Shown: in pieces, positions 8,373 to 36,122 of the stretch | How positions within the stretch are numbered: position 1 is the first letter of the stretch | Layout: each line of letters begins with the position of its first letter | Source: Methanospirillaceae archaeon | Lineage (GTDB): Archaea > Halobacteriota > Methanomicrobia > Methanomicrobiales > Methanospirillaceae | DNA length: 36,122 nucleotides | Assembly: GCA_016926505.1 (NCBI GenBank) | Contig: JAFGOM010000030.1 | Location: 1 to 36,122, forward strand | Direction: 5' to 3' | Notes under the pieces: generated by a model | The model's input: the letters and a program-made list of their open reading frames with translations, nothing else | Database searches by the model: none | What the model was told of the DNA's origin: nothing | Translations under genes and position numbers: made by a program

Positions 8373-9236
8373 ATGAAGAGAAACATGATGCGATCAAGTC
8401 ACTCCAGAATGCTGGTTTTGATTTTTGTTGCGATATTTCTTTGTGTGTGTCCTGGAACTCCTATCCAGGTACAGGCAGATAATACCGGGAGCCTGGAGAG
8501 TCTCAAAATCTCTGGATCCACGACCGTGCTGCCGGTAGCAGCAAGTGCTGCTGAATTCTTTATGGATATGCATCCTGATACTGACATTCAGGTCAGTGCC
8601 GGTGGATCCAGTGTTGGTGTCCAGTCAGTTGGAGAAGGAACTGCAGATATTGGCATGTCTTCCCGTGATCTTAAGGATGTTGAGAAAGAAAAGTACCCGG
8701 ATCTCGTTCCCCTCGTGATGGCACGAGATGGGATAGCCCTTATTGTTCATCCTTCAAACGTAGTTGACTCCCTGACAATTGATCAGGTTAAGGCGATTTA
8801 CAAGGGTGAAATTATTAACTGGAAAGATGTTGGCGGTGAAGAGAAAGAGATAGTAGTTATCGGACGGGACAGTGCATCAGGAACCAGAGAGTTTTTCCAC
8901 GAGTTTGTGATGGATAAAGAAGATTTTGTGCAGACACAACTGGAAAAAAATTCAAACGGGGCGGTTCAGTCAACCGTAGCCCAGACTCCGGGGAGTATCG
9001 GGTATGTCGGACTCGGGTATGTCGATGAGACCATAAAGCCATTATCCATTGATGACGGGACTAACACGGTTGAACCAACGGTTGAGAACGTGTTAGAAGG
9101 GCTTTACCCGGTATCCCGGTCTCTTTACATGATAACAAACGGTGAACCCGAAGGTCTTGCTGCACAATTCCTTGACTTTATTATAAGTCAGGAAGGACAG
9201 AATTTAGTCTCTGAAGAAGGATTCGTCCCTGTCTAA
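8373..9236 (+). CDS. pstS: Phosphate ABC transporter substrate-binding protein, paralogue 1
   Basis: A 287-residue PstS-type phosphate-binding protein. A signal segment covers about residues 12-35 and ends QVQADN; there is no clear lipobox with a following mature Cys, unlike its neighbour. Phosphate-contact motifs are SGSTTVLPVA (about 45-54), SAGGSSVG (about 74-81) and GRDSASGTREFF (about 163-174). The protein would sit outside the membrane and feed phosphate to the PstCA-PstB transporter encoded at 12380-15071. It is followed by a secreted Ig-like protein and a second pstS at 10183. The two pstS genes share stretches of identical DNA, including 43 bases at 8977-9019, indicating recent duplication or gene conversion. 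Confidence 0.93.
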   Translation: MKRNMMRSSHSRMLVLIFVAIFLCVCPGTPIQVQADNTGSLESLKISGSTTVLPVAASAAEFFMDMHPDTDIQVSAGGSSVGVQSVGEGTADIGMSSRDLKDVEKEKYPDLVPLVMARDGIALIVHPSNVVDSLTIDQVKAIYKGEIINWKDVGGEEKEIVVIGRDSASGTREFFHEFVMDKEDFVQTQLEKNSNGAVQSTVAQTPGSIGYVGLGYVDETIKPLSIDDGTNTVEPTVENVLEGLYPVSRSLYMITNGEPEGLAAQFLDFIISQEGQNLVSEEGFVPV

Positions 9237-10107: not shown

Positions 10108-10182
10108 CTCTGAGTAACTAATAACTCTATGGAACATGGGTATGTGACCACGGTAAATGATAAAAAAGTGAGACTGAACTAT

Positions 10183-11055
10183 ATGAAGAGACAGATGATA
10201 AAAACCGGTTTTGCCGGATTGATTATAGTCTTATGTATTGCAGTACTTCTCTCTGGATGTACAGGAACTCCCGGAGAGGGAGATGTTACAAAGGCCGAGA
10301 GAACAGGGACCATCGAGAGTCTGAAGATTTCGGGTTCTACGACCGTGCTTCCGGTAGCCGCGAATGCTGCTGAAATCTTCATGGATATGCATCCGAATGC
10401 TGATATCCAGGTCAGTGCCGGGGGATCCAGTGTCGGAGTCCAGGCGGTAGGAGAAGGGACTGCTGATATCGGGATGGCTTCCCGGGATTTAAAAGACGTC
10501 GAGATAGAGAAGTACCCGGATCTCGTTCCCCGGATGATTGCACGTGACGGGATAGCCGTTATCGTTCATCCATCCAACACGGTAGACAGCTTGACTATTG
10601 ATCAGGTTAAAGCAATATACAGGGGAGAGGTAACCAACTGGAAGGATCTTGGCGGTTCTGATACCCAGATCGTAGTCATCGGACGGGACAGTGCATCAGG
10701 AACCCGGGAGTTCTTCCACGAGTTTGTGATGAAAAAAGAAGACTTTGTACAGACACAGCTTGAGAAGAACTCAAACGGAGCAGTTAAATCAACGATAGCC
10801 CAGACTCCGGGGAGTATCGGGTATGTCGGACTCGGGTACATCGATGAGACAATAAAACCGGTTTCTATCGATAACGGAACAACCACGATAGAGCCCACGG
10901 TAGAGAATGTCATATCAGGAGAGTACCCGGTTTCCCGATCTCTCTACATGATAACCAAAGGCGAGCCGACCGGACTTGCTGCTCAATTCCTTGCGTATAT
11001 CATGAGTCAGGAAGGGCAGGAACTGGTATCTGAAGAAGGTTTTGTTCCTGCGTGA
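10183..11055 (+). CDS. pstS: Phosphate ABC transporter substrate-binding lipoprotein, paralogue 2
   Basis: A 290-residue PstS. The N-terminus MKRQMIKTGFAGL leads into a hydrophobic stretch and a lipobox LLSGC, so the mature protein is predicted to be lipid-anchored. SGSTTVLPVA, SAGGSSVG and GRDSASGTREFF are the phosphate-binding loops. An in-frame ATG at 10129 would add 18 residues before the signal peptide, which is implausible; 10183 is chosen. It is very similar to the first PstS across the whole mature domain. The MITE at 9988-10107 lies immediately upstream, so the promoter is either inside the element or has been altered by it. A T-rich terminator follows. Confidence 0.93.
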   Translation: MKRQMIKTGFAGLIIVLCIAVLLSGCTGTPGEGDVTKAERTGTIESLKISGSTTVLPVAANAAEIFMDMHPNADIQVSAGGSSVGVQAVGEGTADIGMASRDLKDVEIEKYPDLVPRMIARDGIAVIVHPSNTVDSLTIDQVKAIYRGEVTNWKDLGGSDTQIVVIGRDSASGTREFFHEFVMKKEDFVQTQLEKNSNGAVKSTIAQTPGSIGYVGLGYIDETIKPVSIDNGTTTIEPTVENVISGEYPVSRSLYMITKGEPTGLAAQFLAYIMSQEGQELVSEEGFVPA

Positions 11056-11115: not shown

Positions 11116-12132
11116 TTATGGTGAATCATCAGAGAACATGATAGCGTAGTTGATCACGATCTCTGCAATATCTGTTGAATACTCTCCGAATCGCCTGATA
11201 CTATCTGATATTTTGCGAATCGGGAGAGCGACTTCGGTAGGCAGATGCCGTATCTCGTGGTTGATATCTGAGTACTGCTCTTCCAGGTTATGTATCAACT
11301 CGATGGTTCTGTTTGCCATCTGTGCATCATTCACAAAGAAAGATTCCAGACTTTTTTCAAATAACTTCAGTGATGATATACCTGCATTCTGGATCATCTG
11401 TAACAGGTCTTCTCCTGCCTCCTCCTTTGAGATCAGTTTACTATTCCAGGCAATCCTGACTGCATGATCTCCGACACGCTCCAGAATCCGGCTTATCAGG
11501 TAATGAGGCATTACATGCGATATGGTGGTATCCATCTTTCGTGCAAGATAGATATTGTTCATGATCATGTTATTCTGCCTGCTGATGAGCCAGAACAGCC
11601 GGTCTATGTCATTATCACGGGCAATTACATCATCTGCCGTGTCATGGTTCCCGGTAATGAGTGCTTCCATGGAATCCTTGTGCATCTCTTTTACCAGAAC
11701 AAACATGCGTTTGAGTGAGTTTTTAAATGGTAATTCAAGGGGATTGAGAAGGTCTTTTAGGAGTATCATTGTTTCAGTCTCTTCAATCACCTCAGGACCG
11801 ATTACCATCGAGGTGAATTCCCTGATCTTTACTTTAAGTTTTAAGGGAATACCATCCTCCCCTCGGATAATTATGGTACTAAATCCTGCAATATATGTCC
11901 CGATTAGCATCCGCAAAAAGTAGGTGGGATCAGTCGTCTCCTTAATCTTAATGGTTTTTATCCGTTCGATCTTCTCTTCCGAGATATTTTTTGTAATAAT
12001 AAGGGTACCGTTCTGTTCTTCTACAATACCCAGGGGATCATTCTTCCTGATACCAAGAGATTCTATCCATGATTTGGGAAGGGTCAGAACATATGATGAC
12101 CCTCCTGTCATCTGTATTCGTCTGATATCCAT
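11116..12132 (-). CDS. AbrB/SpoVT-PhoU fusion, phosphate uptake regulator
   Basis: A 338-residue protein. Residues 1-50 form a swapped-hairpin AbrB/SpoVT DNA-binding domain (MDIRRIQMTGGSSYVLTLPK, then a beta hairpin ending LIITKN). Residues about 115-330 are helical with PhoU features, including RDNDIDRLFWLI and ISRILERVGDHAVRIAWN. Such fusions in archaea are considered regulators of phosphate uptake genes; PhoU domains bind metals and sense the state of Pst. It is transcribed away from pstCA-pstB-phoU and towards pstS, sharing its upstream region with the permease gene. Two nearby palindromes (12146-12157 and 12166-12175) just before its ATG are candidate sites for its own AbrB domain. Confidence 0.9.
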   Translation of the reverse strand: MDIRRIQMTGGSSYVLTLPKSWIESLGIRKNDPLGIVEEQNGTLIITKNISEEKIERIKTIKIKETTDPTYFLRMLIGTYIAGFSTIIIRGEDGIPLKLKVKIREFTSMVIGPEVIEETETMILLKDLLNPLELPFKNSLKRMFVLVKEMHKDSMEALITGNHDTADDVIARDNDIDRLFWLISRQNNMIMNNIYLARKMDTTISHVMPHYLISRILERVGDHAVRIAWNSKLISKEEAGEDLLQMIQNAGISSLKLFEKSLESFFVNDAQMANRTIELIHNLEEQYSDINHEIRHLPTEVALPIRKISDSIRRFGEYSTDIAEIVINYAIMFSDDSP

Positions 12133-12304: not shown

Positions 12305-12379
12305 TATGATGAATGTTGTAGGTATAATCGGAATGAATTGCACTGATCTTTGATCCCCGTATACCATGGAAATTGTATC

Positions 12380-14308
12380 ATGAAACACCAGACTTTTTTG
12401 CAGGTAAAAGATGCTGGTATCACAAAGATCTGGTTTTTGTGTGCCTTATTCTCTGTTGTTGCGATCTTTTTTATTCTTGGGTTCCTGTTGTATGATGCCG
12501 CTCCGGCCTTTTTCGATATCGGTCTTTTAGCAATTCTTACCGGAATGAAATGGGATCCGACTGCTTTTATCCCGAAATATGGTACTTTCCCCCTCATTAT
12601 CGGAACATTACTCGTAACACTCGGATCCATGGTCATTGCCATCCCCCTCGGAATCGGTAGTGCGGTGTATATCTCTGAACTTGCATCCCCCCGGTTAAAG
12701 AAGATCTTAAAACCGGCTGTTGAACTGCTTGCCGGAGTTCCTTCTGTTGTATATGGATTTTTTGGTCTTGTTGTCCTTGTGCAATGGATCCAGGTCAGTT
12801 TTGATGTCGTCAGCGGAGAGACAGTCCTTGCCGGGTCGATACTCCTCGGGATCATGGCCCTTCCGACGATTATCAGTGTTTCAGAGGATGCAATCAGTTC
12901 AGTTCCCCGGTTTTACAAGGAGGGTTCTTTAGCCCTTGGTGCCACCCACTGGCAGACGATATCGCGCATCCTTGTTCCTTCAGCGTTATCAGGGATTACC
13001 GCCGCAATAATCCTCGGAATTGGCCGGGCGGTCGGAGAGACGATGGCAGTGATGATGGTTACCGGTAACGCAGCAGTTATTCCTGATCCCATCTGGAACA
13101 TTCTCTCACCGGTACGAACTCTCACCGGAACGTTAGGGATAGAGATGGGGGAGGTGGCAATCGGATCACTTCATTACCATGCACTCTTTGCCGTTGCCGT
13201 GATCTTACTTGCGATAACCCTTCTCATCAATATCACTGCAACGGTTATCCTTGCACGAATCAAGGAGAAGCAGATGGGAGCTGGTTCTGCACGAAACCGG
13301 GGATTGATGCTGGTCGTATTGAGCAGTTCTATCGAGCGGATTCGACCCTATCTCTGGCTGATTCCGGTTCTCCTGTTCATTTTATTCTTTTACGCGGTTT
13401 TTGGATGGGTGGGCCTCTTTTACAGCTCGGTCCTGCTGCTCCTGTACTTCAACAGCACCCGTATTCTCTCCCAACAATGGGTTCAGCGAATCGTTTTTTC
13501 CCTGCTGTTGCTTGTTATGGTGACGGTTATCGGGATATTAGGAGTAATTCTCTATGATATCTTCTCAAACGGCCTGCCTTACGTCACCATTTCGTTTCTG
13601 ACAGAATATCCGGTCTCACTTGGCAGGGGGGGCGGGATATATCCTGCCATCATCGGAACCATTTACCTTGTCGCGGGAGCGATCCTCATTGCTCTTCCCC
13701 TGGGTGTCGGATCCGCGATATACCTTACCGAGTACACGAAGGAGAATGCACTCTCTAAATTAATCCGAACAGCAACCGATCTGTTAAACGGGACACCTTC
13801 GATTGTTTTCGGTCTTTTCGGGTTTACATTTCTTGTTCTCTATCTCAACTGGGGAGTCTGTATGCTCGCAGGCCAGGTAACCCTTGCACTGATGGTCCTT
13901 CCCACCCTTATCAGGACAACCGAGGAGGCACTGCGTTCTGTTCCTTCTGCTCTCCGTGAGGGATCCTTAGCCCTCGGTGCCACGAAATGGCAGACCATCT
14001 ACCGGGTTGTACTTCCCCTGTCAGTTCCCGGTATCATCACCGGTTCGATCCTCTCAATCGGGCGGGCCGCAGGAGAGACTGCCCCCATCATGTTTACCGC
14101 AGTTGTATTCAGCAGGCGGTATCTACCGGATTCTGTTTTTGATCCGGTGATGGCTCTTCCCTATCATCTCTTTGTCCTGGCTACCAATGTTCCGGGAGCG
14201 ACCCATAATCAATATGCAACGGCAGTCGTGCTGCTTCTCCTCGTTATCCTCATCTATGCAGTCGCGATTCTTATCAGGAATCACTTTACATCAACCATAC
14301 GGTGGTAA
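12380..14308 (+). CDS. pstCA: Fused phosphate permease PstC-PstA
   Basis: A 642-residue membrane protein formed by the two Pst permease subunits in one chain. The first half (residues about 1-310) is PstC-like, with MetI-type helices and the EAA coupling motif [14 protein letters not shown]. The second half (about 320-642) is PstA-like with a matching [14 protein letters not shown]. Extra helices in the linker around 320-390 allow both halves to keep the correct topology. It forms the phosphate channel and contacts PstB through the two EAA loops. A TTG ten codons upstream is possible, but the ATG at 12380 begins a more natural cytoplasmic N-terminus. The stop is one base before the pstB ATG. 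In most genomes pstC and pstA are separate genes. Confidence 0.92.
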
Positions 14309-14309
14309 C

Positions 14310-15071
14310 ATGTTGTCTGATCCAATTCTCATTACAAAAAACCTGAACCTCTGGTACGGGACAAACCATGCATTAAAGGATATTACGATGGAATTGCCTG
14401 ATAAAAAGACCACAGCATTTATCGGTCCTTCCGGATGCGGGAAATCAACCCTTATCCGCTGTTTTAACCGGATGAACGATCTCGTGGATCCCTGCAATAT
14501 TACCGGCTCTATCTCCTACCACGGGCGTGAACTGTATGGACCTGACTGTGATCCGGTTGAGATCAGGATGAAGATCGGGATGGTTTTTCAGAAACCAAAC
14601 CCGTTTCCCAAATCTATCTATGAAAATGTTGCCTTCGGACCGCGTGTCCATGGCATTAAGGATAAATGTACCCTCGATCAAATCGTGAAAGAGTCCCTCA
14701 CGAAGGCAGCCCTCTGGGATGAGGTCTGTGACCGGCTTTCTGATTCAGCACTCGGATTGTCAGGCGGGCAACAGCAGAGGCTCTGTATCGCCCGAACCCT
14801 GGCAGTCAATCCTGAGATCATCTTAATGGATGAACCATGCAGTGCCCTTGATCCAATAGCAACCGCAAAGATAGAAGATTTAATTGACGTTTTAAAACAG
14901 GATTACTGTGTCATTATCGTAACCCACAGTATGTCACAGGCATCACGGGTGAGTGATTATACTGCCTTTATGTACTTAGGAGAGCTGATTGAGTATGGAG
15001 AGACCAGTCAGATATTTGAGAATCCCACCGTGGAACTGACTGAAAATTACATCACGGGACGATTTGGATAA
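14310..15071 (+). CDS. pstB: Phosphate ABC transporter ATP-binding protein
   Basis: A 253-residue PstB. Walker [10 protein letters not shown] is at 39-47, the Q-loop is [10 protein letters not shown] (91-100), the signature LSGGQQQR is at 150-157, Walker B ILMDEP at 171-176 and the switch His in IIVTHS. The [13 protein letters not shown] segment is characteristic of PstB rather than other ABC ATPases. It hydrolyses ATP to drive the PstCA channel from the cytoplasmic face. The ATG at 14310 follows the pstCA stop by one base, with GGTGGT as ribosome site; an open frame from 14172 inside pstCA is not used. Confidence 0.96.
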
Positions 15072-15083
15072 GGGGGAATATAC

Positions 15084-15734
15084 ATGCATGACAAAATGCG
15101 GACTGAGATGGCAGCGATTCACTCGTCTGTTTCAGAGATGGGTGAATATGCACTGGTGATGCTGACTGAGTCACTGGAGGCCCTGGAAAAGAATGATAAA
15201 CAGATGGCTCTTTCTGTTATCCAGAAGAATCCATCATTAACGACCCAGTACCAGGCACTTGAGGAGGAGATGTTCCGGTTTATTGCTATTTACCAGCCGG
15301 TAGCAAAGGATATGCGAAAAATGGTCTGCTCTATCCGTTTGATCTATAATTTTGAACGGATTGGCAGGATGGGAAAGGATATTGCCAGGATGATCATCAA
15401 CTTCCCTGACGTGGATCACCGGTCACACGAAAAGAGTATCAGGAAAATGGGAGAAGTGGTTACGAACATGATCGCTGACTGCACTGTTGCATACCAGAAG
15501 GAGGAGTGTGATCTTATCCTGGAGATGTATAAAAGGGATGATATCGTGGACTCATTGTATGAGATTGTCGTTGAAGAGACTATCAGGTGGATGGTAAAGG
15601 AACGGGAGATGATCCCGGTGGGTGCTTCGTATCTTATTATTGCACGGTTACTCGAGCGGTGCGGTGATCAGGCCTGCAATATTGCAGAGATGGTCAGGTA
15701 CATGATATCAGGGCAGCGGCCTCTGGTTACTTAA
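15084..15734 (+). CDS. phoU: Phosphate transport system regulator PhoU
   Basis: A 216-residue PhoU made of two three-helix repeats. Metal-binding and family patterns include YNFERIGRMGKDIARM (about residues 90-105) and LLERCGDQACNIAEMVRY (about 188-205). It is last in the pstCA-pstB-phoU operon, 12 bp after pstB, with AAGGGGG as ribosome site. PhoU restrains Pst activity when phosphate is plentiful and, in bacteria, links Pst to a PhoR kinase; no PhoR/PhoB pair is visible here, so signalling may instead run through the AbrB-PhoU protein at 11116-12132. Confidence 0.93.
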   Translation: MHDKMRTEMAAIHSSVSEMGEYALVMLTESLEALEKNDKQMALSVIQKNPSLTTQYQALEEEMFRFIAIYQPVAKDMRKMVCSIRLIYNFERIGRMGKDIARMIINFPDVDHRSHEKSIRKMGEVVTNMIADCTVAYQKEECDLILEMYKRDDIVDSLYEIVVEETIRWMVKEREMIPVGASYLIIARLLERCGDQACNIAEMVRYMISGQRPLVT

Positions 15735-15955: not shown

Positions 15956-17362
15956 TCAGCTCATATCTGTATTATTATCAGAGGGATCGGTGCAGATCGA
16001 GAGGGATCCCTGATTATTCGCTATCCCGTAGTTTTCACGCCACAATCCGCTGGGAATTGTTATCTCAAATCGTGCTCCTTTATTCTCTACCCCTGTCTCC
16101 TGTATTCCTATACCGGTTACTGAGAGGATCTCACGTATGAAATACAAACCAAGTCCGCTCGAAGATCCATATCCTCTCTGAAAGATTTTTTCTTTCCGTT
16201 CTGTCCTGATCCCGATACCGTCATCTTCAATTATCCAGGAACAGGTATCGCCCTCATTTCGGTAATATGTCCGTATTATGGTTAAATTTTTTTCGTATCT
16301 CAATGCATTATCACATAGGTTGTATATGACCTTCTCAAGTAATGGATCCCCGTATATCTCGAGTGGAGAGAGATGGATCTGAAAGTCAATCTTTTTATCC
16401 CTGATTGAAGAGATGGCTTTCTTAAAAAGATCTTCGGCCTCGTACCATGCAGGCATATTCATCCCAAGTGATTCATAATCTTTCATGAAATCAATCTGGT
16501 GATGGATATCCAGGGATTGCTTCTCTATTCTCCTGATAATCTCAATAATCGTAGCATCTTCTGTCTCATCCTCTAAAATTGAGCAGTATCCGAGGAGGAT
16601 CTGCAGGCTGTTCTTCATATCATGCATGGTAATCGATGAGAGGAGTTGTTGTTTTACAGAGAGGATCTTTTGTATCTCTTCCTTTGCTACCTGATCTGAT
16701 ATATCCCGGGCAATGATTGATATATCTGGAGGATGGTTGTTCTGGCTTGGTAAGATACTTGCAGTCAGGGAGAGATAGATCTGCTCACCATCCTTTCTAA
16801 AAAAAGGTCGTATCAGGTGGTGTACTGATTCACCTCTCTGGACCATGCCAATAATTTCAGTGATTGGATCTTTTGTATCAGATAGTAACGGGGTATCAAC
16901 ATGATACTGTGCAATTTCAGCAGCGCTCATCCCGAATATTTTTTCGGCACTGCAATTCCATGAAATGACAGTTCCTGTACTATCAATGGAGAGGATTGCA
17001 TCATTACTTGACTCAATAATCGAAGCCAGGTGTTTTATGGCATTATCTGCCTTCTGTCTGGATTGATTCACCTGAGAGAGGAGATCATTGTGCCTTCGCA
17101 AAATAAAAGCGGTTAATATTGTAACTAACAGAACGGTAACGGCAATCGTAATAAGATGTGACTCCCACTTGCTAATCGTAGGGAGCAGAAGTTCTTTTAT
17201 CGACTCGTAAAGAGTCATCCCGATGAGTGTTCCCCCGGAGATAAAGATGAGAAGTGCTTTTACCGGTATCATGTCCCGCGAGGGATCACCGGATCGTGTT
17301 GCCATGCTACTGGTATAGAATTTGTGTTGTGAAGGTATTATACTGAACTCTTCGAGGGTCAT
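15956..17362 (-). CDS. Membrane PAS histidine kinase
   Basis: A 468-residue sensor kinase. Two membrane helices (about residues 33-53 and 69-88) enclose a very short outer loop, so sensing is probably cytoplasmic or in the membrane. A PAS domain spans about 105-225. The phosphoacceptor is His247 in TMHDMKNSLQIL, the N-box is YNLCDNALRY, the G1 box EDDGIGI and the G2 region GYGSSSGLGLYFIREIL. The HDMKN form is common in methanogen kinases. No receiver domain is attached and no response regulator is next to it on its own strand. An alternative start at Met20 (17305) is possible. Its kinase core resembles that of the protein at 18657-20312. Confidence 0.9.
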   Translation of the reverse strand: MTLEEFSIIPSQHKFYTSSMATRSGDPSRDMIPVKALLIFISGGTLIGMTLYESIKELLLPTISKWESHLITIAVTVLLVTILTAFILRRHNDLLSQVNQSRQKADNAIKHLASIIESSNDAILSIDSTGTVISWNCSAEKIFGMSAAEIAQYHVDTPLLSDTKDPITEIIGMVQRGESVHHLIRPFFRKDGEQIYLSLTASILPSQNNHPPDISIIARDISDQVAKEEIQKILSVKQQLLSSITMHDMKNSLQILLGYCSILEDETEDATIIEIIRRIEKQSLDIHHQIDFMKDYESLGMNMPAWYEAEDLFKKAISSIRDKKIDFQIHLSPLEIYGDPLLEKVIYNLCDNALRYEKNLTIIRTYYRNEGDTCSWIIEDDGIGIRTERKEKIFQRGYGSSSGLGLYFIREILSVTGIGIQETGVENKGARFEITIPSGLWRENYGIANNQGSLSICTDPSDNNTDMS

Positions 17363-17587: not shown

Positions 17588-18400
17588 ATGACCAGCATAA
17601 CAAACTCGATTATGACAAAACTTACGGTTGGATTTCTTATTCTTGTTCTTTTAATAACAGGATTAACATTTCTTTTCACTGTCGGGGCATCAACAGAGAA
17701 GATACAGGAATCAACACAACAGGAACTCCTTGCGATTGCTTCTATTACGGCATCAGACTTAAACGGAGACGAGATTGCGAAACTGAGGCCAGGCATGGAA
17801 AAAGAGATCCTGTATCTGGTAAATGTCGAACAGTTAGCCACTATGGCACAGGCAGACAACGAGATCGTAAAGATATTTACTGCAAAAAAGACAGGGACCG
17901 GAATGGAGTATGTCATTGACAGCGGTTACAACATCGGAGAACGGGATGTAAAGATTGGAACAGAGATACAGAATCCTTCAAGAGCCATGGTAATGGCATA
18001 CGACAGCTCACAGGTTGAGGATTCCTTTGTTACCCGACCATGGGGAACGGTCTTTTCTGCATATGCGCCTATAAAGAATGCGACCGGGGAGGTTATCGGG
18101 ATCGTCGGAGTTGATATGGATGCAGCAGTGGTTCAGGATCGCATGGATTTTGTCGGCCAGACCATCTACCTGGTCTTTATCATTGGTATTACCTGTACAG
18201 CAATTATTATAGCCGTCTTTTCCCGGATCATGATTCGTGACATCCATATTCTTATCAATTCAGCAGACCGGATAAGCCATGGTGATACCAATGTGGTGAT
18301 CTCGATTGACCGCAAAGATGAGATTGGAGAACTGGCGGTCTCGTTTAAACGAATGATTACCAGCCTGAAGATTCTCATGCACAAGGATTACCAGCCTTAA
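17588..18400 (+). CDS. Cache-HAMP membrane sensor without output domain
   Basis: A 270-residue protein. TM1 is at about residues 9-32, an extracellular domain of about 160 residues follows, then TM2 at about 193-215 and a HAMP domain to the end. The outer domain has the double-Cache features of bacterial chemoreceptors, with YVIDSGYNIGERD and a second-lobe GEVIGIVGVDMD. It has the input half of a chemoreceptor or sensor kinase but stops after HAMP, with no kinase, MCP or cyclase. The next three plus-strand genes supply these parts as separate proteins. An alternative start is Met9 (17612). It probably binds a small ligand outside the cell and passes the signal to a partner through HAMP. Confidence 0.85.
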   Translation: MTSITNSIMTKLTVGFLILVLLITGLTFLFTVGASTEKIQESTQQELLAIASITASDLNGDEIAKLRPGMEKEILYLVNVEQLATMAQADNEIVKIFTAKKTGTGMEYVIDSGYNIGERDVKIGTEIQNPSRAMVMAYDSSQVEDSFVTRPWGTVFSAYAPIKNATGEVIGIVGVDMDAAVVQDRMDFVGQTIYLVFIIGITCTAIIIAVFSRIMIRDIHILINSADRISHGDTNVVISIDRKDEIGELAVSFKRMITSLKILMHKDYQP

Positions 18401-18420
18401 GTAATCTTTTGGTTGTGAGG

Positions 18421-18660
18421 ATGAAAATGAGTATCATCTCTGATAAAATACTGGAGATATCAATGGAATACCTGGGACCTGCGGCAATAACGCTCCTTGA
18501 ACGGCAGACGAAGTTCCATTTAAACGGCCTCGTGTTTACCGATCTGCAATCTTCTCATTGTGAAGAGCTTGCAAAATGGGTTGCCCTCGCCTCGGCTATG
18601 TTTATTGAGCAGGATATGGCATTAGAACTTGCAGAAAAGATACGAGGGCTGGCACGATGA
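18421..18660 (+). CDS. Small helical protein in the signalling operon
   Basis: About 79 residues if started at the ATG 18421 (a second ATG is at 18427, a GTG at 18409). It has no membrane segment. Phrases such as YLGPAAITLLERQTKFHLNG and LAKWVALASAMFIEQD suggest a compact helical domain. I recognise it only as a type of small protein that recurs in methanogen signalling clusters, not as a named family. Its stop overlaps the start of the REC-kinase gene (ATGA at 18657), so it is translated with it. It could be an adaptor between sensor and kinase. Confidence 0.7.
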   Translation: MKMSIISDKILEISMEYLGPAAITLLERQTKFHLNGLVFTDLQSSHCEELAKWVALASAMFIEQDMALELAEKIRGLAR

Positions 18661-20312
18661 GACAGATTTTGCAGGCAGAGTGTTCATCTGAACCTATCCG
18701 GGTTGTTCATGTTGATGATGATCCCTTTATTGGGGGCCTGACAAAGATATACCTTGAGCGTTCAGGTCAGATTACGGTTTATTCGTGTCTGGAAGCAGAC
18801 CAGGCATTTGATTATCTCACCCAGAACCCGGTTGATGTTTTCATCTCTGATTACGAGATGCCCGGGCTGAACGGGATTGAATTCCTCAAAAAATTACGGG
18901 AACAGAACTGTGATCTTCCCTTTATTCTTTTTACCGGAAGGGGAAGGGAGGATGTGGTCGTCGATGCCTACTCAAACGGTGCAACCTCGTATATCCAGAA
19001 AGGAGGTGAACCAAAGTCTCAGTATGCAGAACTGTTACACAAGGTAATTTATACCCACAGACAGTATAAGAGTCAGCAGAAGGTTAGCCATCTTTCAAGA
19101 ATTTTCAGGTCATTACGGGTAATCTCTCATACCCTTCATGAAGATGAGGATATCGATTCAAAATTAAACCGGGTTTGCCACCAGATAATCTCTGAAACAG
19201 GATACCGGGATGTGAGATTACTGCTTTTTAAGCCCGATGGGGGGATCGGACAAATGTATCATGCAGGCAGCACCGGTACTGTCGATTCGTCTCTCTCACA
19301 GATCCAGGAAAAAGCACTGACTTCCTGTATGGAAAAAGCTCTTCTGACTCCTAATGGGCCAATAATTTGTTCTTCCGGTTCTAATTGCGTCTCCTGTCCG
19401 CTATTACCGGATCATTTCGGATTTAAAACCCTGACAATGCGGCTTTTTTACGGCGGTAAGACGTACGGTCTTATCTCAGTATCACTGGATCAGGAATATG
19501 CCCGTGATCCGGATGAACAGGCCCTGCTTGTTGAGCTGTCACGGGAGATAGCATCTGCAATTTATCAGTCTTTTCAGAAGGAAGAGCACAGCGCCATGGA
19601 AACACTGATACAGGCCAATACAAAACTGGATATTCTCAATTCCCTGACCCGGCATGATATAAAGAATGAACTTACGATCACTATCTTTCATATGGAGAAT
19701 CTCCTCGAACTGTCAGAAGAGATCGGAGTGATCCGAGAGGATATCTCTCGTCTCCATGACTCCTTAAATAACATCCAGGAACATCTTATGTTCTCTGATG
19801 TATACCAGAAAATCGGGATGAAAAAAGCCAAATGGCTCTCTCTATCGAGTATCCTTGAGAATATCCGTCTTACCCATAATTTCGGTTCAGTTTCCATTAT
19901 TCATTCCACCGGTACCCTTGAGGTCTATACCGATCCCATGTTCGGGAAAATAATTGTAAACCTTGTCGAGAATGCCCTGATGCACGGGTGCCGGGTTACT
20001 ACGCTACAGGTAGGGTTCATCGAGCAGGTTGACAGCGGCATCCTCTTTATCGAGGATGATGGTATGGGAATACCTGATGAGAAAAAATCCCGGATTTTTG
20101 AGCGGGGGGTGGGTAAGAATACCGGTCTGGGGTTGTATTATACCCGTGAAATCCTTGGCCTCACCGGGATGAGCATCACCGAGACCGGAACGTATGGTAC
20201 GGGAGCACGGTTTGAGATTCGCATTCCGAGGAGCTGTTACCGGTGGTATCGTGGGGAGGATGTCGGGGCTCATACTGGCATGGTAACAGGGAAGGAGGGA
20301 CGGTTCAGATGA
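18657..20312 (+). CDS. Hybrid REC-GAF-histidine kinase
   Basis: A 551-residue soluble protein. The receiver domain (about 14-130) has the acidic pocket DDD at 20-22, phosphoacceptor Asp65 in ISDYEMPG, Thr93 and Lys115. A GAF-like region (about 150-310) contains a Cys cluster, CSSGSNCVSC, that could bind a metal or sense redox. The kinase follows, with His333 in TRHDIKNELTI, N-box VNLVENALMHG, G1 EDDGMGIP and G2 GVGKNTGLGLYYTREIL. REC at the N-terminus means it can take phosphate from another kinase as well as autophosphorylate. It overlaps both neighbours by an ATGA, so sensor, helper, kinase and MCP are made together. Confidence 0.9.
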   Translation: MRQILQAECSSEPIRVVHVDDDPFIGGLTKIYLERSGQITVYSCLEADQAFDYLTQNPVDVFISDYEMPGLNGIEFLKKLREQNCDLPFILFTGRGREDVVVDAYSNGATSYIQKGGEPKSQYAELLHKVIYTHRQYKSQQKVSHLSRIFRSLRVISHTLHEDEDIDSKLNRVCHQIISETGYRDVRLLLFKPDGGIGQMYHAGSTGTVDSSLSQIQEKALTSCMEKALLTPNGPIICSSGSNCVSCPLLPDHFGFKTLTMRLFYGGKTYGLISVSLDQEYARDPDEQALLVELSREIASAIYQSFQKEEHSAMETLIQANTKLDILNSLTRHDIKNELTITIFHMENLLELSEEIGVIREDISRLHDSLNNIQEHLMFSDVYQKIGMKKAKWLSLSSILENIRLTHNFGSVSIIHSTGTLEVYTDPMFGKIIVNLVENALMHGCRVTTLQVGFIEQVDSGILFIEDDGMGIPDEKKSRIFERGVGKNTGLGLYYTREILGLTGMSITETGTYGTGARFEIRIPRSCYRWYRGEDVGAHTGMVTGKEGRFR

Positions 20313-22717
20313 GAACCGGTACAACGACAGTAAGTATTTCTGAAAGGTTTATCAAAACACCAGAAAAACCCGAATTTATCGGATCATTTCCGAAGGAGTG
20401 GCAGGATGATCCGGACTCCCTACCGGTACCGGTAATCATCTGTGATCAGACGCTCACTATCACGGGGGCAAACCTGGCTTTTTTTGAGTGTTCAGGGTTT
20501 GATCCGGAGACTTTTAAAAATACCCATTTCCGGGATCTTGCAATTTCCCTGGTTTCAGGCGAATCTGTATGGGATACTGCAATAACCGGGCATGAGACTG
20601 TTGGTATCGCTGAAGTCCGATTTCCGAAATGTTCTTGTTTTTATCAGGTTTATACGATTCCTGTTTGCAATGAGAACCAGATGGGATCGAAGATCTTTAT
20701 CTTTTTCTCTTCTTCAGAGGATAATCCATCCGTTCCCACTTACGATACTATCAGGGAGTCATTATCCGGTTCCGTTGAGATTCTCGCTGAACAAGACGGA
20801 ACTATCCTTTCCCTCTCTTCGGCAGCAGTTACAACCGACCTTATGACAGGAGATCTGCAAACAGAAAGAAACATCTGGAACTGGGGGATATTACATGGAA
20901 TAACCGATTTTTCAAGGATTATCTCAGGCAACTTTAAGAATAAAACAATTAGTCAAGCAGTTCACTCTGGTGAGAGGGATTATCTGGTAACGGTGCGGGT
21001 GCATGATGTTGTTCTCCTGAAACGAAGCGTGCTCCATATCACCATCGATACCATCCCGCAGGAGTATCATCAGAAAGATACGGCAAAAGATATGGCATTG
21101 GTTTTAGGGATACGAGGTCTCGCATCTGCTGCCTCTCAGGGTAATTTCTCATACCGGATGAGTCAGGAAGGGGTGAATGATGCCAGTATTTGCGTGATTG
21201 AGTCTCTCAATGCTATGATGGAGCAGTGTGAGATTCATTATTCTGCACTGGGAGAAGGCATTGCCCAGATGAAGTCTGGATGGATCCCTTCCTCGATTCA
21301 TTGTTCAGAAGAGGGACCCTTTTCGGAAATTTTTCAGAATATAAACGAAGCACTAAATTCTCTTCAGCAGATGATGGCAACAGTGGAGTCCTTTACTATG
21401 TCGGTTTCCGAGGGTAATCTTACTATCAGGGGAGATACCAGTGGTCTTTCCGGCTATTATCTGGCTCTCATATCAGGAATGAACCAGATGCTTTCCCGCT
21501 TACATACACCGATCCTTGAGGTGCAGCGGGTTGCCGGGGAGTATGCTTCCTGCAGGTTTTCGAATTCAATGGATGATGCAATTGCGTACCCGGGTGATTT
21601 TGCCATGCTGAAGGAGTCCATGGATGCCATCGGGATATGGTGTTCTGCAGTGGTCGGAGAGATTGACCGGGTAAGCAGCCGGTATGCAGCCGGTGATTTT
21701 ACTGCCCACATGAGTCCACGCCTTGAGGTAACCGGGGATTTTATCACTATCCGTGATTCCCTTGACAATATTGGTGTACAGGTTTCAGAGAGCATCGGTT
21801 CACTTCGTCGTGCTACAGAAGTACTCAGGCATGAAGCTGACGGGATAAAGAATGAGATAGCAAAAATTTCAGGAGATACTGAGATTCTTGCCTCCTATAC
21901 ATCCACGGTATCAGATCGGACAAAGTCTGTCCAGGATGAGGTGAGCCAGATGATCCAGAGTTCTGATGCGGCAATACAGGCCCTTTGTGAGATGAATGGG
22001 AAAATCAAGGCTGTTGCTCAGACTTCGGCAGAGACACATACGCTTTCTGCAAAGGGGGTAACACTCGCCACTCAGAGCAGGGAGGGTATCGATGCGATAT
22101 CTGATGCAGCAGGCATGGTTGATTCCGGTATTACCCGGATCCACGAGGAACTGATACGGATCGAGAAGATTATCAGGGTAGTAACCGATAATGCAAACCA
22201 GACGAATTTTCTCGCGATTAATGCTGCAATAGAGGCAGCACATGCAGGAAGTTATGGAAGAGGATTTGGTGCCATTGCAGGTGAAGTGAAACAACTTGCA
22301 GTGCGGTCTAAGGAGTCGACTACTGATATTTCAGAGACCCTGGAGGCATTAAACGATGCATTCAGGCAGGTAAAGGAAACCGTTTCCCAGGTACAGGAGG
22401 AGATCCATTCAAGAAGCACGGGTATATGTGAGATGGTAAGTCTCTTTGAGGAGATGATCAAAGAGGTTGAGATAATTGCAAGAATGAGCAGGGAGACCGG
22501 GGTTCTTACCGGAGACCAGGAGAGCCGGATATCCGATCTCCATGCACGTTCTCTCGTCATTGGAGATCTCATGGATCTGACTGCCCGTGATGCAGAGACA
22601 ACAGCAAAAACCTGTTCTTCTTCGTGCAGTTCTGTTGAACAGATTTCAGGTCATATTGAGACCGTTGCAACATATGCTGATGAGATTAATACCCGGATAA
22701 GCCGGTTTACCGTGTAA
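20309..22717 (+). CDS. Soluble PAS / poly-HAMP methyl-accepting chemotaxis protein
   Basis: An 802-residue protein without signal peptide or membrane helix. A PAS domain (about 30-140) and a second PAS-like segment (about 150-265) are followed by repeated HAMP-like units (about 275-530), each with a phrase of the type ASQGNFSYRM, VSEGNLTIRG or YAAGDFTAHM. Residues about 545-800 form an MCP signalling coiled coil; the hairpin tip is AINAAIEAAHAGSYGRGF and EVKQLAVRSKEST, which docks CheA and CheW. The ATG at 20309 overlaps the stop of the kinase gene. A longer open frame begins at 20243 inside the kinase gene. No CheA or CheW is in the window, so the target array is elsewhere. Confidence 0.9.
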   Translation: MRTGTTTVSISERFIKTPEKPEFIGSFPKEWQDDPDSLPVPVIICDQTLTITGANLAFFECSGFDPETFKNTHFRDLAISLVSGESVWDTAITGHETVGIAEVRFPKCSCFYQVYTIPVCNENQMGSKIFIFFSSSEDNPSVPTYDTIRESLSGSVEILAEQDGTILSLSSAAVTTDLMTGDLQTERNIWNWGILHGITDFSRIISGNFKNKTISQAVHSGERDYLVTVRVHDVVLLKRSVLHITIDTIPQEYHQKDTAKDMALVLGIRGLASAASQGNFSYRMSQEGVNDASICVIESLNAMMEQCEIHYSALGEGIAQMKSGWIPSSIHCSEEGPFSEIFQNINEALNSLQQMMATVESFTMSVSEGNLTIRGDTSGLSGYYLALISGMNQMLSRLHTPILEVQRVAGEYASCRFSNSMDDAIAYPGDFAMLKESMDAIGIWCSAVVGEIDRVSSRYAAGDFTAHMSPRLEVTGDFITIRDSLDNIGVQVSESIGSLRRATEVLRHEADGIKNEIAKISGDTEILASYTSTVSDRTKSVQDEVSQMIQSSDAAIQALCEMNGKIKAVAQTSAETHTLSAKGVTLATQSREGIDAISDAAGMVDSGITRIHEELIRIEKIIRVVTDNANQTNFLAINAAIEAAHAGSYGRGFGAIAGEVKQLAVRSKESTTDISETLEALNDAFRQVKETVSQVQEEIHSRSTGICEMVSLFEEMIKEVEIIARMSRETGVLTGDQESRISDLHARSLVIGDLMDLTARDAETTAKTCSSSCSSVEQISGHIETVATYADEINTRISRFTV

Positions 22718-34042: not shown

Positions 34043-34771
34043 ATGATTCCGGATCTTGATGCAGAGCTCCGTTCCCTCTCAGAGGATGCTGATTACTTCG
34101 GGATTGCTGATCTTACCCCTGCCCGTGACTTTATTCTCGCACAGGGCGGAGAACAGGTCGCTCAATACCCCCGGGGAGTTGTCATCGGCATAAGACTCCT
34201 GGATAGTCTTGTCGACTCCCTGCCGACAAGGGACCCGGCAGCCGCCATCCTGTACCGGCACAACGCGTACGACGTGGTAAATGCAGCTCTCGATCAAATC
34301 GGGCTTCGGATAGCGAACACCATTCAAAGGGCCGGATTTTCAGCATTTCCCGTTCCCTCATCGAAACGGACGAATGATGCAGGTATCTGCAGCATCTTCT
34401 CCCAGAAACTCGCAGCCCACCTCGCAGGTCTCGGCTGGATCGGGAAGAGTTGTCTTCTTATCACCCCGGATTACGGACCAAGGGTCAGGTGGGTTACCAT
34501 TCTAACCGATGCACCGCTTTCTCCGACCGGCGATGCGATGGAACAACGTTGCGGGAAATGCACGGCATGTGTCGATATCTGTCCTGTTCAGGCGTTTACG
34601 GGACGGCCGTTCTCCCCTGACGAATCCCGGGAGGTCCGGTTCGATGCGGCTGCCTGCGACCAGTACTTCCGGGGAATGGAGAAAGACGGAGGGGTTGGAG
34701 TATGCGGGCTCTGCCTGTATGTCTGTCCGTACGGGAGGAAGAAAAAATCAAACGTCCATAAACGAGAATGA
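34043..34771 (+). CDS. QueG-like double 4Fe-4S protein
   Basis: A 242-residue protein related to epoxyqueuosine reductase (QueG) and archaeal reductive-dehalogenase-like iron-sulfur proteins. [19 protein letters not shown] is a signature of the family. Two ferredoxin-type motifs at the C-terminus, CGKCTACVDICP and CGLCLYVCPYG, bind two 4Fe-4S clusters. It is shorter than bacterial QueG (about 350-380 residues), and the N-terminal cobalamin-binding part is reduced, so the reaction is uncertain. Part of the gene is duplicated at 35831-36122. Start: ATG 34043, ahead of the DLDAELRSL helix. Confidence 0.8.
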   Translation: MIPDLDAELRSLSEDADYFGIADLTPARDFILAQGGEQVAQYPRGVVIGIRLLDSLVDSLPTRDPAAAILYRHNAYDVVNAALDQIGLRIANTIQRAGFSAFPVPSSKRTNDAGICSIFSQKLAAHLAGLGWIGKSCLLITPDYGPRVRWVTILTDAPLSPTGDAMEQRCGKCTACVDICPVQAFTGRPFSPDESREVRFDAAACDQYFRGMEKDGGVGVCGLCLYVCPYGRKKKSNVHKRE

Positions 34772-35599: not shown

Positions 35600-35971
35600 A
35601 TGAACCAGATGCGGCAGATGATGATTATTGAGTTCACTCATACCCACGGTTCGATAAAGAGCGGAGATATTATGAATCTCTATGGCATTTCCCGACAGGT
35701 AGCAGGCAAGGAGCTCGCCAAATTGGTTGAGCAAAACCTGATTCGGACCAATGGAAAAGGAAGTACGACGCGGTACGTGATGGTGTTATCAGGTTGTCGT
35801 TTTGGTTGTCGATATCCTGCAGGATTCGCTCCGGCAGCCATCATCCTGTACCGGCACAATGCGTACGACGTGGTAAATGCTGCTCTCGACCAAATTTCGC
35901 TTAAGGTCGCGAACATTATCAAGAGGGCGGATTTTCCGCGTTTCCCGTCCGGCATCGAAGCGGACGAATGA
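35600..35971 (+). CDS. Winged-helix protein fused to a frameshifted QueG-like copy
   Basis: Residues about 1-62 form a winged helix-turn-helix ([20 protein letters not shown], then a wing [10 protein letters not shown]) of the kind found at the C-terminus of Fic-like proteins. From about base 35831 the frame enters a duplicate of the QueG-like gene ([18 protein letters not shown]) and stops after a frameshift. The start can be ATG 35600 or TTG 35585. The product is a chimera, probably not the ancestral gene. Confidence 0.45.
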
Positions 35972-36122
35972 TGCAGGTATCAGCTGCATCTTCTCCCAGA
36001 AACTCGCAACCCACCTCGTAGGTCTCGGCTGGATCGGGAAGAGTTGTCTTCTTATCACCCCGGACCACGGACCCCGGGTCAGGTGGGTTACCATTCTAAC
36101 CGATGCACCGCTTTCTCCGACC
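35831..36122 (+). pseudogene. Partial, frameshifted duplicate of the QueG-like gene, cut by window end
   Basis: This stretch matches 34235-34528 with many scattered substitutions and two single-base deletions, one in the GCCGGATTTTC region and one in the CCGTTCCCTCATCG region, so the frame is lost. It includes the LGWIGKS signature region. The window ends before its ferredoxin motifs, so how far it goes on is not known. Confidence 0.85.

Follow-up and report, generated by a model that had tools for sequence, protein, structure and literature searches.

The four co-directional genes called at positions 17588-22717 (+) of the window, which is the whole 36,122-nucleotide stretch of Methanospirillaceae archaeon DNA analysed here, encode a membrane sensor, a small STAC protein, a soluble histidine kinase and a soluble chemoreceptor. 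We put the probability at about 0.5 that this locus specifies a phosphate-linked split receptor, built on a receptor-STAC core of the Af1503/Af1502 type, that feeds a two-component and a chemotaxis pathway via STAC. It appears to be new that, in a single clade of such pairs, a REC-GAF histidine kinase and a PAS/HAMP chemoreceptor, both soluble, have been added, and the link of a receptor-STAC pair to phosphate appears to be new as well. No description of the four-gene extension or of its Pst linkage was found in the literature searched, the main STAC paper (J Mol Biol 2015) aside. The genes of the unit and their overlaps are as follows.

17588..18400, + strand: membrane sensor, 270 aa; TM, Cache-like domain, TM and HAMP; Af1503-like, without output domain
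18424..18660, + strand: stand-alone STAC protein, 78 aa, helical; LGPxA motif as LGPAA
18657..18660, + strand: ATGA stop-start overlap of the STAC and kinase genes; kept as NTGA at 8/8 orthologous loci
18657..20312, + strand: soluble REC-GAF-histidine kinase, 551 aa
20309..20312, + strand: ATGA stop-start overlap of the kinase and MCP genes; kept as a 4-11 nt overlap at 7/8 loci
20309..22717, + strand: soluble chemoreceptor (MCP), 802 aa; PAS, HAMP array (at least two HAMP_2) and MCP signalling domain, without TM

A preliminary description of this DNA had claimed these four genes with their order, domains and ATGA overlaps, and the open reading frames and domain searches bear this out, with the gene order kept in 8 genomes. 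The sensor and STAC genes lie in different reading frames and are separated by a gap of 23 nt. Hydropathy analysis predicted two transmembrane helices in the sensor (residues 4-37 and 188-217) and none in the STAC, kinase or MCP proteins of the window. The sensor gave weak sCache_3 matches, its HAMP domain (E 7e-12) occupies residues 211-260 of 270, and no output domain was found, in agreement with the earlier view of a ligand domain and HAMP lacking an output. When the sensor profile was compared with the PDB, the HAMP domain of Af1503 was the top match (E 5e-9).

The small protein had been thought to belong to no named family. Indeed, it matched no Pfam or NCBIfam family model, yet it is a member of the published STAC family. 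Korycinski, Hartmann and Lupas described archaeal Af1503-like receptors with HAMP as the sole cytosolic part, genomically coupled to Af1502-like proteins of 60-90 residues with an LGPx(x)A motif, which they named STAC for its association with solute transport, and proposed that the domain regulates solute transport; a stand-alone example was named from Methanofollis liminatans (PMC4834066). The window protein carries LGPAA at residues 17-21, and LGPxA is present in all 20 homologues, with L-G-P invariant. The AlphaFold2 (AF2) model is an all-helical, compact bundle (pLDDT 97.6), for which DSSP lists three helices, the first two being merged. In a Foldseek search with this model, Af1502 (5a1q) was the best PDB match by both probability (0.89) and TM score (0.60/0.66), with an E-value of only 1.2, which taken alone is modest support. 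PDB searches by phmmer and by profile, divergent members included, did not match STAC to 5a1q, and Af1502 is itself a singleton in sequence searches according to its own authors (PMC4834066). Based on the length of 78 residues, the LGPAA motif, the fold match to Af1502 and the match of the sensor profile to the Af1503 HAMP domain, the small protein is a stand-alone STAC protein and the first two genes are an Af1503/Af1502-type receptor-STAC pair, already known for archaea (PMC4834066; PDB 5A1Q). The earlier statement that no description of such a unit exists therefore fails for the sensor and small protein.

In the kinase, the domain search found the claimed receiver (REC, 5e-20), HATPase_c (8e-12) and a GAF domain, whose E-value of 9e-4 is marginal in Pfam, just under its cut-off. 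Residues D65, H333, N439, D467/G469 and G490-G492 are invariant in 8 orthologues, and His333 and Asp65 stand where the preliminary description had placed them. The protein thus has the phospho-His, the N and G boxes and the receiver Asp of a histidine kinase / receiver hybrid. Four cysteines in the GAF region (C224, C238, C244 and C247; C-x5-C-x2-CP) are likewise invariant in all 8 orthologues and could possibly form a metal or Fe-S cluster site. The chemoreceptor matched MCPsignal (2e-25, 90 bits), HAMP_2 in two stretches (2e-12) and, at its N-terminus, PAS_4 (4e-5). Its multiple HAMP domains, signalling tip and lack of a membrane part had been recognised before, the PAS domain had been overlooked. 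The tip is conserved, with the hairpin QTNFLAINAAIEAAHAG of the type that couples to CheA/CheW, and each of the 8 genomes with the four genes encodes CheW.

The pairing of STAC with its sensor was followed through 199 genomes of the order, 17 of which contain a total of 21 STAC genes. All except one (20/21) lie directly 3' of a sensor paralogue, and the exception (L049) is an N-terminally truncated STAC remnant behind a glutaredoxin/thioredoxin-reductase gene; in a locus of the same genus (L040) the same kind of gene precedes an intact pair. Conversely, the same genomes hold 20 close full-length relatives of the sensor, defined as profile matches above 390 bits, and every one has an adjoining STAC gene. 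One further pair (L100) was found in another family of the phylum, and two divergent STACs (L101 and L102) likewise follow HAMP-ended receptors. The co-occurrence of the small protein with HAMP-ended sensors, which had been suggested as a check, is therefore well borne out. As to the wider surroundings of such genes, the divergent pair L101 (G064) is located directly downstream of a PBP_like_2 (PstS-like) gene. In L102 (G117:C87), the receptor is of another sensor type and the pair adjoins a convergent gene for a soluble PAS-HAMP-MCP, so that STAC pairs may have become linked to cytosolic MCPs a second time, independently. In another family of the phylum, soluble or membrane proteins of ~300-365 aa also end in a STAC-like domain (L103, L104 and L105; G269 and G220), a fusion context of which we know of no description. 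Finally, a sensor-STAC pair with 49% identity to that of the methanogen was found in two fen MAGs labelled Chloroflexi (L130 and L131; GC 0.63), reflecting either gene transfer or mis-binning.

Kinase orthologues (at least 44% identity) are present in 8 genomes from three genera (that of the window, g8 and g12), and MCP orthologues in the same 8. In all of them the kinase and MCP genes follow the pair in the same order, so that the four genes do stay together, as the preliminary description had asked of a genuine unit. The only departure from adjacent kinase and MCP genes is an extra MCP copy in Methanospirillum stamsii (G146:C40), a member of g12, the group that includes Methanospirillum; its genome (G146) also carries the four-gene unit. 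The next kinase relatives are 32-35% identical and come from genomes in which no STAC was detected. In the trees, a branch supported at 100/100 sets the sensors and STACs of the four-gene units apart from the others. Their stems are long, at 1.38 (sensor) and 1.03 (STAC) changes per site, and the main groupings agree between the kinase and sensor trees. Together with residues specific to the clade (MFIEQD in STAC, KILMHxDY in the HAMP tail), the supported branch and long stems fit one origin of the four-gene unit with adaptation to new partners, as far as this can be read from sequences. Because the eight loci are one lineage, the co-occurrence counts are not independent.

The remaining 13 loci contain the pair only. 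No constant transporter and no adjacent kinase or MCP gene was present among the neighbours examined, which are unrelated housekeeping or unknown genes, indicating that the pair can work without dedicated partners. One such locus (L030; G000:C22:36466-37528) is a second sensor-STAC pair in the genome of the window itself. It is oriented divergently to a putative ABC transporter, and CheW (domain match) and a CheR-like gene (by eye) lie ~6 kb away. The pair-only loci count against a split receptor, and so do the input domains that the kinase (GAF, REC) and the MCP (PAS) have of their own. Both observations would be accounted for if the targets of the sensor-STAC pair are encoded elsewhere, while the kinase and MCP sense independently and merely share its operon. 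However, such co-expression would not lead one to expect genes that co-occur exclusively and keep a fixed order in 8 genomes, the start-stop overlaps, or the long branch common to sensor and STAC ahead of the four-gene clade, and we consider it unlikely.

The best clue to the input of the proposed split receptor is the pst/phoU neighbourhood of the unit, which the preliminary description had overlooked. In the window, it consists of the following genes.

8373..9236, + strand: PstS-family phosphate-binding protein 1 (TIGR02136, 269.8 bits versus a cut-off of 206.6)
10129..11055, + strand: PstS-family phosphate-binding protein 2 (TIGR02136)
11116..12132, - strand: PhoU-like regulator with a probable AbrB/MazE-type N-terminus (weak TIGR02135 match; the homologue at L037 has MazE_antitoxin and PhoU domains)
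12350..14308, + strand: fused PstC-PstA phosphate permease (TIGR02138 and TIGR00974)
14313..15071, + strand: PstB ATPase (TIGR00972)
15084..15734, + strand: PhoU (TIGR02135)
15956..17362, - strand: divergent membrane PAS-histidine kinase between phoU and the unit (domain search)

The best match of this PAS-histidine kinase lies just downstream of the MCP gene in L033 and L034. At the far end of the window, 34043-34771 and 35789-36094 share coding sequence; it appears that an iron-sulfur protein gene has been partly duplicated.

A pstS gene (TIGR02136 above cut-off in those tested) is found 0.27-6.6 kb from the unit at 8/8 four-gene loci. Since the genomes concerned have only 1-4 PBP_like_2 matches each, a pstS gene this near is expected at about 0.5-2% of random places per genome. 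None of the 13 pair-only loci had pstS in the fetched stretches, some of which have short flanks. The difference of 8/8 versus 0/13 corresponds to a Fisher p of 5e-6, which is nominal given the common descent of the eight and the short flanks of some stretches. The arrangement differs between loci: pstSCAB-phoU is upstream of the unit in the window, and also in L037, with MazE-PhoU genes on both sides; pstS is divergent in L031-L034, and on both sides in L035-L036. Pst adjacency kept across four arrangements is as expected if it is selected.

The pst genes beside all 8 units would also suit a pair that gates Pst uptake, with the kinase and MCP reporting transport activity. STAC was named for its association with solute transport and docks under the transporter in CbrA. 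On the other hand, recognisable PstCA was not found at 6/8 four-gene loci, which had pstS only within the fetched 10-16 kb, and a constant transporter is lacking at the pair-only loci, making regulation of a neighbouring transporter decidedly improbable. Another reading is that the split receptor is real and responds to something other than phosphate (for instance a redox signal, formate or another carboxylate), with shared inheritance explaining the Pst neighbours. The model of the sensor domain has a Cache/PDC-like fold, nearest to sensor domains of the WalK, CitA and formate-chemoreceptor types. This predicted fold does not identify the ligand, and as none of its nearest folds is a known phosphate binder, it would argue against phosphate as input. 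A different ligand would agree with the resemblance to CitA and formate-chemoreceptor domains, with the GAF cysteine quartet if this binds a metal or Fe-S cluster, and with the common ancestry of the eight loci, but it leaves the persistence of Pst adjacency in four different arrangements unaccounted for, and we do not think it probable.

For the phosphate-linked split receptor, we infer the following contacts, ligand and direction of signalling. A dimeric Cache-TM-HAMP sensor would monitor the phosphate status on the outer side of the membrane, its likeliest ligand being phosphate-loaded PstS or phosphate itself. Such indirect sensing has a precedent, since chemoreceptor CtpL of Pseudomonas aeruginosa is stimulated by phosphate-loaded PstS (PMC4926252). 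The terminal HAMP domain would pass a conformational change to STAC. In CbrA, STAC is docked beneath the SLC5 transporter, ahead of the kinase domains (PMC13022988); by analogy, STAC may dock under the sensor HAMP and touch the kinase, the MCP or both, handing the signal to these two soluble outputs of the same operon. The kinase would act on gene regulation and receive a second input through its own Asp65; the cytosolic PAS/HAMP chemoreceptor would act on CheA/CheW and the archaellum.

Af1503 is the source of HAMP structures that are widely used models of transmembrane signalling. To our knowledge, Af1503-type receptors have no recognised effector module and no known output, and the role of STAC is unsettled. 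The operon names two concrete candidate outputs beside such a pair, as well as a likely input (phosphate through Pst), and the partners of HAMP-only receptors thereby become testable in the cultured genus Methanospirillum. If true, this is one sensor divided into parts so that it supplies a two-component and a chemotaxis pathway simultaneously. A broader proposal, which we regard as tentative and somewhat unlikely, is that STAC is a general connector between output-less HAMP receptors and the separate soluble kinases and chemoreceptors that they drive, and that the four-protein receptor reads phosphate-loaded PstS, so that a single membrane sensor steers both gene expression and swimming.

The unit shares features with several known systems. 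Like Af1503/Af1502 of Archaeoglobus fulgidus (PDB 5A1Q; CASP11 T0816), it begins with an output-less sensor-TM-HAMP receptor followed by a helical LGPx(x)A protein of 60-90 aa, and has transport genes nearby. However, Af1502 is part of an Af1505-Af1502 operon with an MgtE-type transporter, whereas in the window the pair is followed by a dedicated soluble kinase and MCP and has pst genes as neighbours. In the SLC5-STAC histidine kinases CbrA, CrbS and RpuS, STAC likewise has a membrane input on one side and a histidine kinase on the other, but in one polypeptide with a transporter as input, whereas the window has four proteins, a Cache-HAMP input and an additional chemoreceptor. No transporter is fused to the sensor, STAC or kinase of the window, which are separate genes, and the locus thus does not encode a CbrA-type SLC5-STAC kinase. 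The candidate logic is that of CtpL-PstS of P. aeruginosa, in which transporter-bound phosphate is read by a receptor feeding chemotaxis, although CtpL is an ordinary single-chain transmembrane MCP without STAC or a separate kinase. Finally, the window MCP resembles FrzCD, a soluble di-HAMP chemoreceptor, and other cytosolic MCPs in being soluble with several HAMP domains, but unlike these it is encoded together with an output-less membrane receptor and STAC.
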